Below, piece by piece: positions 24,679 through 35,088 of a stretch of 35,088 bases of DNA. The notes below the pieces were generated by a model. The model worked only from the letters and a program-made list of their open reading frames with translations, was not told the origin of the DNA and did not search any database. A program made the translations under genes and the position numbers. The first letter of the stretch is position 1, and every line of letters starts with the position of its first letter. The stretch is from an uncultured bacterium. Its GTDB lineage: Bacteria > Chloroflexota > Anaerolineae > J036 > Brachytrichaceae. The stretch spans positions 1 to 35,088 of the forward strand of contig CAIXPS010000491.1 of the NCBI GenBank assembly GCA_903921365.1, in the 5' to 3' direction.

Positions 24679-25485
24679 ATGGATGAATCGGCATTAAAAG
24701 AGTTGCTGGCAGGCGTAAAGGACGACAGCGTTTCTATCGCCGAAGCATTGCGACGGCTGCGCGACCTCCCTTTTACCGACCTCGAGTTTGCCAAGCTGGA
24801 CAACCACCGCGCTTTGCGCAACGGGTTTCCTGAAGTGGTGCTGTGCGAGGGCAAGCAGATTGCCCACCTCATCGCGATCATGCAGCAACTCTGCATAACG
24901 AGTGTGCACGGCGGCCCGGTGCTGGCGACGCGCGCGAGCGCCGATGTGGCGCGCCTGGTGCAAACGGCGATTCCTGGCGTGCGCTATAACGACCTGGCGC
25001 GCGCGCTAACCTACGAGCCCAGCCCATTGCCAAAACGCCCCGGTCGCATTCTTGTGATCAGTGCGGGGACGGCCGATCTGCCGGTTGCAGAGGAAGCTGC
25101 GGTGACTGCCGACATTATGGGCAACACCGTCGAACGCATCTACGACGTTGGCGTGGCCGGTCTGCACAGATTGTTGTCGCACATGGATCGAATCACCGCG
25201 CCCGATGTCAGTGTGCTGATCATCGTCGCGGGGATGGAAGGCGCATTGCCCAGCGTTGTAGGCGGGCTAGTGCGCGTGCCGGTGATCGCCGTGCCGACGA
25301 GCGTCGGTTACGGCGCCAGCTTTGGCGGCCTGGCGGCGCTGCTCGGGATGCTGAACAGTTGCGCCGCGGGCGTGACAGTGGTGAATATCGACAACGGCTT
25401 TGGCGCTGGTTTTGCCGCCAGCAGAATTAACCTGATGAGAGATGTATCTCAGATGTCAGACTTCTCCGAGAAGTCTGACATCTAA
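24679..25485 (+). CDS. larB: LarB, nickel-pincer cofactor biosynthesis carboxylase/hydrolase
   Basis: LarB carboxylates the pyridinium ring of nicotinic acid adenine dinucleotide and hydrolyses its phosphoanhydride. This is the first step to the nickel-pincer cofactor of lactate racemase and related enzymes. The C-terminal PurE-like half shows [58 protein letters not shown] and NIDNGFGAGFAAS. The N-terminal half matches the family (EALRRLRDLPFTDLEFAKLD). The natural C-terminus would end near INLMR. The last dozen residues, SQMSDFSEKSDI, and the stop codon come from a hairpin repeat. larE follows closely. Confidence 0.94.
   Translation: MDESALKELLAGVKDDSVSIAEALRRLRDLPFTDLEFAKLDNHRALRNGFPEVVLCEGKQIAHLIAIMQQLCITSVHGGPVLATRASADVARLVQTAIPGVRYNDLARALTYEPSPLPKRPGRILVISAGTADLPVAEEAAVTADIMGNTVERIYDVGVAGLHRLLSHMDRITAPDVSVLIIVAGMEGALPSVVGGLVRVPVIAVPTSVGYGASFGGLAALLGMLNSCAAGVTVVNIDNGFGAGFAASRINLMRDVSQMSDFSEKSDI
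25451..25483. repeat. 33-base hairpin repeat, copy 3, forming the end of larB
   Basis: Perfect 16-base arms (AGATGTCAGACTTCTC / GAGAAGTCTGACATCT) surround a single-base loop. The repeat encodes the last residues of LarB and supplies the first base of its TAA stop. It is intercistronic to larE and could protect or modulate the operon mRNA. Confidence 0.9.
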
Positions 25486-25509
25486 GGACAGCTAAGTGTG
25501 GAGCGTGTG

Positions 25510-26373
25510 ATGTCTGAATTGAACGAAGCGGTGCAACTGAAGTATGACCGGTTGCGCCAGATACTGACCGATATGGGTGATGTGATCATCGGCATGTCGG
25601 GCGGCGTGGACAGTGTGCTGCTGGCGCGCGTGGCGCGCGAGGTGCTGGGCGACCGGGCGCTGGCGGTCACCGCTGATTCGCCCAGCCTGCCACGGCGCGA
25701 ATTGCGCGAGGCTGTGCGGCTGGCTCAACTGGCCGGCATCCGCCATCAGGTCATCAAGACTTACGAGGTGAATGACCCGCGCTACGCGGCCAACCCGAAT
25801 AACCGCTGTTACTACTGCAAGACCGAGTTGTTTACCAACTTGGACGGGCTGGCTGGCGAGCTGGGCTTTCACTGGGTGGCCTACGGCGAGAACCAGGACG
25901 ATATGGGCGACCACCGACCCGGCGCGCAGGCGGCAAAGGAGCACCATGCGCGCGCCCCGCTCAAGGAAGCGCAACTGACCAAGCCCGATATCCGCGCGTT
26001 GGCGCAGTTCTTCGATCTGCCGGTTTGGGACAAACCCGCTTTTGCCTGCCTCGGGTCGCGTTTCCCGTATGGGACTGAGATCACGCCGGAAAAACTGGCG
26101 CAGGTCGAGGCAGCCGAGGATGTGCTGTGGGATCACGGGTTCCGCCAGTTCCGCGTGCGTCATCACGGTGATGTGGCGCGCATCGAGATCGAGAAGGGCG
26201 ATATGCTGCGAATGCTGGAGGCGGCGGACGAGATCACCGCGTCAATCAAAGATCAGGCGCGCTTCACCTACGTGGCGTTGGACCTGGGTGGATACAAGCG
26301 CGGCAGCATGAACCTCGCGCCCCAGGCTGGCGTCATCATCCCAATCGAGATCATCTCGTTGCACACCGTATGA
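25510..26373 (+). CDS. larE: LarE, sulfur transferase for the nickel-pincer cofactor
   Basis: LarE adenylates the carboxyl groups of the LarB product and inserts sulfur. The PP-loop SGGVDS is at 30-35, followed by AVTADSPSLPRREL. Cys180 in KPAFACLGSRFPYG corresponds to the sacrificial cysteine of Lactiplantibacillus LarE. Two further cysteines, Cys100 and Cys103 in NRCYYCK, give a three-cysteine set. This is reminiscent of LarE proteins reported to use an iron-sulfur cluster instead of sacrificing a cysteine (inference). The open frame reaches a GTG at 25498, but GGAG six bases before the ATG at 25510 favours that start. It overlaps larC by 4 bases. Confidence 0.94.
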   Translation: MSELNEAVQLKYDRLRQILTDMGDVIIGMSGGVDSVLLARVAREVLGDRALAVTADSPSLPRRELREAVRLAQLAGIRHQVIKTYEVNDPRYAANPNNRCYYCKTELFTNLDGLAGELGFHWVAYGENQDDMGDHRPGAQAAKEHHARAPLKEAQLTKPDIRALAQFFDLPVWDKPAFACLGSRFPYGTEITPEKLAQVEAAEDVLWDHGFRQFRVRHHGDVARIEIEKGDMLRMLEAADEITASIKDQARFTYVALDLGGYKRGSMNLAPQAGVIIPIEIISLHTV

Positions 26374-27764
26374 AGTGCCTGTACCTGGATTGCTTCGCCG
26401 GCATCAGCGGTGATATGACAGTTGGCGCACTGCTCGATCTGGGGATCGAACTCGCCGCGCTTGAACACGAACTCGCCAAGTTGCACCTGACTGGCTACCG
26501 GCTGGACGTGACGCGCGTGGACAAACGTGGGTTGCAGGCCACGCAGTTCAAGGTTCTATTGACCGATGACGCGCGCGAGCGCCTTGCTGACAGCGATGTG
26601 GTCGAAGCTCCGCCGGGCGCTGACGCTGACGCGCATGATCACGACCATGCACATGCACAAGTTCATGAGCCGAGCCATGAGCACCGCGCGTTGAGCGATA
26701 TCCTGGCGATCATCCATGCGAGCGAGCTGTCCGCGCGGGTGAAGGAGCGCGCGAGCGCGATCTTCACGCGGCTTGGGCAGGCTGAGGCGACCGTTCACGG
26801 CGTCGATATCGAGCACATTCACTTCCACGAGGTCGGCGGCGTTGATGCGATCATCGACATCACCGGCGCGGTGATTGCGCTGGACCTTCTTGGCGTTGAG
26901 CAGGTGCTGGCGTCGCCGTTGCACCTGGGCAGCGGTTTCGTGCGCATGTCACACGGCACATATCCGATTCCCGCGCCGGCGACTGCATTATTGGTGCGCG
27001 GCGTGCCGGTGTACGCGACCGAAGCGAAAGGCGAGCTGGTCACGCCGACCGGCGCAGCCATCGTCACGACGCTGGCGCAGTCGTTTGGGCCGCTGCCAAT
27101 GCTGGCGATCGAGCGGATTGGGTACGGTGCGGGCACGCGCGACCGCGACTTTCCCAATGTGGTGCGCGCCTTTCTGGGTGATTGGGTCGCCAGTGTAAGC
27201 GCGACAACCGTGGCAACCGCGAGAGCCGCCGATCCGCTTCGCGCACCGCGCACGCCTCACCCAGAGCAGCACGCAGTGCCTGTCAACCCGGAGGGGTATC
27301 AGGAACAGACGGCGGTAGTGATCGAAGCCAATATCGACGATATGAACCCGCAGCATTTCGAAGTCTTGCTGGAGGCGTTGTTACAGGCTGGCGCGCTGGA
27401 TGCCATCCTGCTGCCGGCACAGATGAAGAAGCAGCGACCCGGCACGTTGTTACAGGTGGTGGCGCATGCCGAAGGCGTGAACGACCTGATCGAGATCATC
27501 TTCCGCGAATCCACAACAATCGGCCTGCGCACCTATGCCGTCAACCGCTATATGCTGCCGCGCGACACGCGGCAGGTCGTCACACCTTATGGCGTCGTGC
27601 GGGTCAAGGTGGCGCGGCGCGGCAATCGTGTGATGAACGTCGCGCCGGAATATGAGGACTGCCGAGCGCTGGCGCAACAACACGGCGTCGCGCTCAAGCT
27701 GGTGTATGCCGCTGCGCTTGGCGCGGCAATAGCACTCGGTTCTGTGTCCGGCGATCAAGCCTGA
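26370..27764 (+). CDS. larC: LarC, nickel insertion enzyme (fused form)
   Basis: LarC inserts nickel into the pincer cofactor using CTP. The 464 residues are one continuous frame containing both LarC1 and LarC2 parts, so no programmed frameshift like that of Lactiplantibacillus is needed. The opening LYLDCFAGISGDM and HIHFHEVGGVDAIIDI are family hallmarks. A histidine-rich stretch at about 89-105 (AHDHDHAHAQVHEPSHEH) is a probable nickel-binding loop. The later ANIDDMNPQHFEVL and PAQMKKQRPG belong to the LarC2 region. The gene ends in a 10-base overlap with the converging C39-like peptidase gene. Confidence 0.95.
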   Translation: MKCLYLDCFAGISGDMTVGALLDLGIELAALEHELAKLHLTGYRLDVTRVDKRGLQATQFKVLLTDDARERLADSDVVEAPPGADADAHDHDHAHAQVHEPSHEHRALSDILAIIHASELSARVKERASAIFTRLGQAEATVHGVDIEHIHFHEVGGVDAIIDITGAVIALDLLGVEQVLASPLHLGSGFVRMSHGTYPIPAPATALLVRGVPVYATEAKGELVTPTGAAIVTTLAQSFGPLPMLAIERIGYGAGTRDRDFPNVVRAFLGDWVASVSATTVATARAADPLRAPRTPHPEQHAVPVNPEGYQEQTAVVIEANIDDMNPQHFEVLLEALLQAGALDAILLPAQMKKQRPGTLLQVVAHAEGVNDLIEIIFRESTTIGLRTYAVNRYMLPRDTRQVVTPYGVVRVKVARRGNRVMNVAPEYEDCRALAQQHGVALKLVYAAALGAAIALGSVSGDQA

Positions 27765-33761: not shown

Positions 33762-33836
33762 GTCAATGGACTGAATCTGAAAGCTTCAATCAGCATGACG
33801 AAATGATTAGGCACCGTCTCGTAACTTGGGAATGGA

Positions 33837-33878
33837 TTACATGAGCCGATAACGTGCCCGTCGCACGCCCGCATGTAA
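33837..33878. other. Nested stem at the end of the MoxR operon
   Basis: The outer arms TTACATG (33837-33843) and CATGTAA (33872-33878) enclose an inner CGTGC/GCACG stem with a 5-base loop. It lies between the converging VWA and reverse-transcriptase genes, close to the point where the sequence becomes AT-rich. It may be a transcription end or part of an island junction. Confidence 0.4.
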
Positions 33879-33914
33879 ACATGGGGACGTACTTTTCTCA
33901 TGCACATCATCTGT

Positions 33915-35088
33915 TTATGGTTTTGGTTTTTCTAGATAATCACGAAATGCCAGATCTTCTGGATGTATAAACGACTTTTCCAATACTGATTTACCTTTGC
34001 CATCTCGAAGATGACTTAAGAACCTCACTGAATATCGTCGTTCTCGGTAGGATTGATCTGGTTCACTGTTTCCCATGTGTTTTACAATCCTGATGATTTC
34101 AGATGGCTTGTTTTTCTCCAGATAATCCATCTTTGCAATAAAGGCTCTAATACATATACATCGTAAGTACCATTGATCAGCTTGATGTGATCCGAAATAC
34201 CTCTCAATCATAAAATCGACCAAGCTATCATCTTGCAACTTCTCGATAGATTCTGCAAGTAATTCCAATAAAAATATACTTACGTTCGGATAAATATTGT
34301 TCTTACTTTTATAGTACGAGCAGACTAATTCCCGGACTTTGGCGTGTTTGATTACCAATTGGGCAATAAATGCTAATTGCACATTCGTCAACTTTGGAAG
34401 CATTTTTGCGTCTTCAATTATGTTTTTGATGAACATAATTGCTTCGGATTCGGAACTGAATAGACCTAAATTGGTGATGTTACCGGTAATAACTTTTAAC
34501 GCATAGTTGGCAAGCGAAAACCAACGTGTTTCAGTTTCACTACGCTGCAGGATATGCTTGTAGAACTCGAAAACTTTCACCGGATTGGCCTTAATTGCCA
34601 TTAGCTGCTCCAATTCAGAAAAAAGCCAATATTCTACAAATTCCTTCTTATTTAGGATTTTTAACTTGCCTTCATTCGGATGAAGCTTTATTTTTCCCAA
34701 CTCAAGTGCCACTACCTGTATTAATTTCTTTGCGTCGTACTGATCTCCTTTAATGCAGAACCAGAGATCATCAGCATATCTTGTATAGAAATAAGAAGAT
34801 GACTCCAAGTTTACCTTTAGCACGTCGATTATGTGAGAATCAAATGTATGCAGGAAGTAGTTAGCAAGAAGCCGAGACATTTCTCCTATTTCTTCCTGCG
34901 GTATTCCCACGGTCGATTCAACAAAGCCCAAGTCTCGTTTATCAGAGTATTTTAGAAAATAGAATAGCAGGTCGATAAGCTCGTTTTTTTCTAGGGCAGT
35001 AAAGTAAACTAGCGGAATGGCGAGGACAAAAGCGCGGCCGAAGCCGACAGAAGAAAAGGTGCTGAGTTGTGTAAACACGGTGTGTACA
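33915..35088 (-). CDS. Reverse transcriptase, 5' part beyond the window
   Basis: This reading frame is open to the right edge, so the N-terminus is missing. The visible part has GIPQEEIGEMSRLLANYFLHTFD (residues 58-80 from the first GTG in view), matching reverse-transcriptase motif 4. YTRYADDLWFCIKG at 98-111 follows, with the catalytic YADD at 101-104. About 250 helical residues follow, with a HEAT-like alternation (DQWYLRCICIRAFIAK). That layout recalls the reverse transcriptases of AbiK/Abi-P2 or the DRT defence classes, in which a helical repeat domain follows the polymerase. Group II intron maturase domains are not seen. The gene is clearly more AT-rich than its surroundings, which suggests horizontal transfer. 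Confidence 0.8.
   Translation of the reverse strand, partial: VHTVFTQLSTFSSVGFGRAFVLAIPLVYFTALEKNELIDLLFYFLKYSDKRDLGFVESTVGIPQEEIGEMSRLLANYFLHTFDSHIIDVLKVNLESSSYFYTRYADDLWFCIKGDQYDAKKLIQVVALELGKIKLHPNEGKLKILNKKEFVEYWLFSELEQLMAIKANPVKVFEFYKHILQRSETETRWFSLANYALKVITGNITNLGLFSSESEAIMFIKNIIEDAKMLPKLTNVQLAFIAQLVIKHAKVRELVCSYYKSKNNIYPNVSIFLLELLAESIEKLQDDSLVDFMIERYFGSHQADQWYLRCICIRAFIAKMDYLEKNKPSEIIRIVKHMGNSEPDQSYRERRYSVRFLSHLRDGKGKSVLEKSFIHPEDLAFRDYLEKPKP

Follow-up and report, generated by a model that had tools for sequence, protein, structure and literature searches.

A putative UG13b-type defence reverse transcriptase gene cut in two by a 1631-bp transposon in an uncultured bacterium

The window analysed here, that is, the whole 35,088-nucleotide stretch of DNA, carries at its right end the back two-thirds of a UG13b-type reverse transcriptase (RT) gene (Table 1). 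A reading of the sequence alone had described at this end an RT with YADD and GIPQ motifs running up to the window edge, a sharp shift in base composition near 33900, and a long helical tail lacking maturase or endonuclease motifs, and most of this description stands. Both motifs are located on the minus strand at the window end, and GC content falls at about 33900 from 58% in the remaining window to 37% in the RT region. The predicted fold of the tail, for which that reading had called, is an all-helix HEAT/ARM-like solenoid (AlphaFold2 on the window's own C-terminal segment, pLDDT 91.8); neither this fold nor a Pfam search, in which the fragment matched RVT_1 alone and below its cut-off (E 1.3e-4), revealed a maturase or endonuclease domain in the tail. 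Among the PADLOC models, RT_UG13b was the best for the fragment (E 2.3e-54), with UG13a far behind (1e-15). The RT is thus real, but it does not extend to the edge: the last stretch of the window is the end of an insertion sequence (IS), and the first 30-odd residues of the open reading frame (ORF) at the edge are translated transposon.

Table 1 Features of the split RT gene and its immediate surroundings (window coordinates unless a contig is named)
Feature	Position	Strand	Remarks
C-terminal fragment of UG13b RT gene	33915..34991	-	Residues 189-546 of 546 plus stop; PADLOC RT_UG13b profile 180-411
RT motif GIPQ	34896..34907	-	Residues 217-220; the G, P and Q do not vary among 41 aligned relatives
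Catalytic motif C, YADD	34767..34778	-	Residues 260-263; the two aspartates are the same in all of 41 aligned relatives
HEAT/ARM-like all-helical repeat domain, C-terminal (predicted)	33933..34583	-	Approximately residues 325-541; AlphaFold2 on the window's own segment
Gap between RT stop and stop of convergent VWA (BatB-type) gene	33762..33914	.	153 bp; free of partner ORFs, SLATT included
Right end (97 bp) of 1631-bp IS, terminal TAGGGCAG...	34992..35088	-	Identical to C175:1536-1632 and C532:1-90; not RT gene
9-bp target-site duplication GAAAAAAAC	34983..34991	-	Second copy on C247 beside left IS end
N-terminal part of RT gene	C247:34215-34787 (profile match 34224-34787)		Profile 2-183

A search of the genome itself, a draft assembly in 603 contigs without reads, found the edge sequence identical over 91-105 bp on two further contigs, and the complete 1631-bp IS lies at C175:2-1632. 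Its transposase contains a MULE/Mutator-type domain (PF10551), together with an IS256-family match below the cut-off. When the genome was searched with the RT_UG13b profile, the front of the RT gene was recovered on contig C247, the profile positions covered there overlapping almost not at all with those covered in the window. On C247, the RT sequence gives way directly to the left tip of this IS; the RT-gene flanks on its two sides each bear GAAAAAAAC, and fusion of the two parts minus one copy of this duplication gives an unbroken ORF of 546 aa. The UG13b RT gene is cut in two by the 1631-bp transposon; an assembly chimera as the cause of the split is ruled out by the shared 9-bp duplication and the near-complementary profile coverage. 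The IS sits behind codon 191, past motif A (DIAHFYDD, 166-173) and ahead of motif C, and the ORF is no longer intact. Since the IS parts motif A from motif C and thereby splits the catalytic residues, neither fragment holds a full active site and the locus is probably inert. The IS pieces are identical on all four contigs that bear them, and the IS was not found in the 27 other genomes of the same family that were searched, which suggests that the insertion is recent. An uninterrupted allele may persist in part of the population.

The joined 546-aa protein scored 379 bits against RT_UG13b (PADLOC-DB DRT, PDLC03750), matching profile positions 2-404 of 430, whereas the next best profile, UG19, reached 97 bits; UG17 scored 51 bits. 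A genome-wide scan found six full-length relatives with 35-44% identity, from Paenibacillus, Cohnella, Shimazuella, Ignavibacterium, Chlorobaculum, and Winogradskyella, and 36 more distant ones. The joined ORF aligns end to end with the six close relatives, with D166, D263, and D264 (L053 numbering) intact; DIAHFYDD and YADD, now on separate fragments, are both present in it, and their aspartates are invariant across the relatives. RT_UG13b is the best profile for the fragment, the joined protein, and all six close relatives (best E 2e-133), although the tail of the window protein exceeds the 430-position model and the gene is interrupted by the IS. In a maximum-likelihood tree (quick search), these seven proteins form one supported clade (SH-aLRT 95-97). 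Judged from these sequences, the gene is a UG13b DRT by descent and probably not a working system. The assignment to an Abi- or DRT-type defence class made by the sequence-only reading is supported by the profile score, by the layout of an RT core followed by a helical repeat, and by the occurrence of relatives in defence operons. A group II intron RNA or retron msr/msd, which that reading had named as evidence to the contrary, did not appear. A group II intron or retron RT was rejected in view of the lack of any such domain or RNA (no Rfam match) and of model scores well below the cut-offs, for example, 36 bits for the group II intron model with a cut-off of 300. A CRISPR-associated RT was likewise rejected, since the genome's own CRISPR-type RT (C253) is a different protein; that RT (L023:9131-12352) is immediately followed by genes resembling cas1 and cas2.

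Among 400 genomes of the phylum, one had UG13b at E <= 1e-20, and this rarity together with the 37% GC composition points to horizontal acquisition of the RT gene. In G001, the nearest sister genome of the same genus, where an empty site was sought, the two genes flanking the RT lie on separate contigs and have different neighbours. Phage records gave no match to the RT; viral contigs gave none with a single protein as the query and five distant relatives with an alignment. The upstream neighbour of the RT on C247 is a divergent FG-GAP/beta-propeller gene whose start is about 100 bp away, and no partner ORF was found beside the joined gene on either flank, in C247 or in the window. The suggestion that the N-terminus and partner genes might lie beyond the window was therefore right as to the N-terminus, which is located on C247, and found no support as to partner genes and a working locus. 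The sequence-only reading had also proposed a search for a noncoding RNA (ncRNA) beyond the window; the roughly 100-150 bp available on either side are too little for the known size of DRT ncRNAs, and no Rfam match was obtained at the two RT-gene flanks. Elsewhere in the window (24679-27764), three consecutive genes resemble, by eye, larB, larE, and larC of nickel-pincer cofactor synthesis.

The predicted architecture was compared with known RTs by means of a full-length AlphaFold2 model of the relative at L053 (Paenibacillus ihumii; 43% identity to the joined protein), which has a pLDDT of 88 and an all-helix C-terminal half. This model, which represents the relative and not the joined window protein, aligned over its full length with DRT6 (438 aa, Z 18.5), DRT4 (426, Z 16.9), UG15 (427, Z 15.7), Abi-P2 (399, Z 15.4), and AbiK (462, about Z 15.0), whereas DRT2, DRT9, DGR, retron, and intron RTs were aligned mostly over the RT core (about 230-330 residues); some intron RTs reach equal or higher Z values, and the argument lies in the coverage of the C-terminal domain and not in Z. 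When the C-terminal domain alone was used in a fold search, it matched generic HEAT/ARM/alphaRep solenoids without singling out the DRTs. Fusions of the RT with a HEAT-like repeat and template-free polymerisation characterise the Class 1 UG RTs, while Class 2 is ncRNA-templated (PMC13174585); a HEAT-like helical repeat fused to the RT, the Class 1 (alphaRep) trait, is predicted here. Both DRT4 and DRT6 consist of a single gene, and the DRT4 product is random untemplated ssDNA (PMC13213688). The UG13b protein shares with DRT4, UG15, and DRT6 the single-gene layout and, through the relative's model, the alignment over core and helical domain (426-438 residues), but identity in the structural alignment is 11-14% and the profiles are separate. 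AbiK and Abi-P2 are protein-primed, template-independent enzymes that form a hexamer and a trimer, respectively, with the helical domain occupying the place of the template strand (PMC9508834). Their bilobal arrangement of RT and helical domain aligns with the relative's model over 399-462 residues, but at 13-16% identity, and their priming tyrosine was not located in UG13b.

Adjacent conserved ncRNAs are known for DRT2, DRT9, and DRT10 (PMC12632851, PMC12483538), and no conserved ncRNA was recognised next to the UG13b RT. About half of the loci in the lineage rich in restriction-modification (RM) genes leave no more than 80 bp on each side of the RT, often with 4-bp start/stop overlaps. Moreover, the closest pair, L053 and L054, shows 73% DNA identity across the gene that does not reach past the coding sequence on either side. 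As far as these sequences tell, such short gaps and the lack of shared flanking DNA argue against an adjacent conserved ncRNA of the kind found in the three systems above. A single-gene, template-independent polymerase is favoured because there are loci without room for an RNA and because the similarity between L053 and L054 is confined to the gene.

We therefore consider it fairly likely that the window gene is a horizontally acquired single-gene UG13b defence RT that resembled AbiK, DRT4, or DRT6 before the insertion and was inactivated by the 1631-bp transposon. For the intact enzyme, we infer untemplated DNA synthesis and abortive defence. Before the insertion, the RT core would have polymerised DNA without a nucleic-acid template, as AbiK, DRT4, or DRT6, and the C-terminal helical repeat would have held the growing strand and built the oligomer. 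Arrest of the infected cell would then come from the DNA made, or from stabilisation of that DNA while the phage infects, with neither a flanking ncRNA nor a second protein being needed.

An intact UG13b RT might instead be Class-2-like and templated by an ncRNA, as in DRT2, DRT9, and DRT10, its RNA being encoded elsewhere or within a neighbouring coding sequence. What recalls such a mechanism is the neighbourhood in another branch of the family: alphaproteobacterial UG13b loci, on plasmids and chromosomes, often have a convergent SLATT_5 gene, and in UG17/DRT10 SLATT goes with an ncRNA-templated mechanism in which the ncRNA is required (PMC12632851); UG17 is also among the other PADLOC profiles that match the joined protein. 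A UG13b RT with SLATT_5 is possibly an RT-effector pair like DRT10, and the mechanism could differ within the UG13b family, given this branch. The resemblance to DRT10 is, however, one of that other branch. The window locus has no SLATT gene and no room for a 137-nt ncRNA plus a SLATT gene, and the score of the joined protein for UG17 is far below that for UG13b. SLATT_5 is otherwise missing from the window lineage, in which the sister-clade locus L065 has the single example, on the same strand. Given also the many loci without room for a flanking RNA, the lack of an Rfam match, the absence of conserved DNA outside the gene in L053 and L054, and the modelled alignment of the C-terminal domain with template-independent enzymes, we regard an ncRNA-templated UG13b RT as unlikely.

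A SLATT partner for the window RT itself was considered and rejected, as none lies beside the RT and no SLATT_5 gene above the cut-off was found anywhere in the genome; this distinguishes the window locus from the plasmid UG13b loci with their SLATT_5 partner. The convergent SLATT_5-like genes 3' of UG13b-type RTs were observed at L049:5282-5965, L050:5267-5998, L051:3983-4330, L085:6296-6931, L087:6254-7051, and L096:6355-6960, and the hosts of the SLATT_5-bearing loci are alphaproteobacteria, plasmids, and one viral contig.

The intact relatives of the window gene have another type of neighbour. The Ignavibacterium and Winogradskyella RTs occupy the position between hsdM and hsdS of a type I RM operon (hsdM-RT-hsdS-hsdR), and the Shimazuella RT lies beside a divergent hsdRSM cluster. 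When the window clade and its sister clade are taken together, 9 of 21 loci have type I RM genes at a distance of up to 5 kb as compared with 1 of 29 others (Fisher p 0.0009), a comparison confounded by taxonomy and by the length of flanking DNA available. In six loci (L056 of Ignavibacterium, L058, L059, L075, L078, and L081), the RT fits tightly among hsd genes, either overlapping them or separated from them by a few bases. On these grounds, the RT could be an accessory subunit of type I RM that acts on or after restriction, the window copy being a stranded orphan. We consider this improbable, however: RM genes are missing from the surroundings of L053, L054, L057, and the window locus, so that dependence on RM is not general, and defence genes are often found within RM operons with which they share no mechanism. 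A related reading, also unlikely, is that the window's UG13b lineage is functionally coupled to type I RM as an ncRNA-free DNA polymerase within hsdMSR operons, which would add abortive defence as a second layer once restriction has been overcome or its products have appeared. The limited literature searched contained no experimental work on UG13/UG13b or on RTs inside RM operons.

Compared with the window copy, which is a broken gene of little weight by itself, the intact relatives matter more and point to a DRT lineage that lacks both partners and a neighbouring RNA and recurs inside type I restriction operons in several phyla. The window copy does offer a caution, in that a DRT profile match at a contig edge may not mean a working system.

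Re-use of the C-terminal fragment, for which the IS end would supply a start (GTG at 35078) for a 387-aa palm/thumb and helical-repeat protein with a new role, is very improbable even though the frame is open from the IS end into the fragment without a further stop or frameshift, because the fragment lacks the motif A catalytic aspartate and because the insertion looks recent, the IS being identical on four contigs and not found in the 27 family genomes, so that the open frame is likely just young.

As for the IS itself, all three right flanks seen have a 7-bp tract of A or T between G/C, namely, GAAAAAAAC in the window (34983-34991), GAAAAAAAG, and GTTTTTTTC (L004:1633-1641 and L005:91-99), which suggests that the IS targets A/T tracts. 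The further copy on C532 adjoins a gene for a caspase-domain protein (Peptidase_C14) at L005:504-2207. On C175, the transposase is spread over two reading frames, and a GGGGGGC run lies where they overlap (L004:590-640); the split may reflect programmed frameshifting or decay of this copy.
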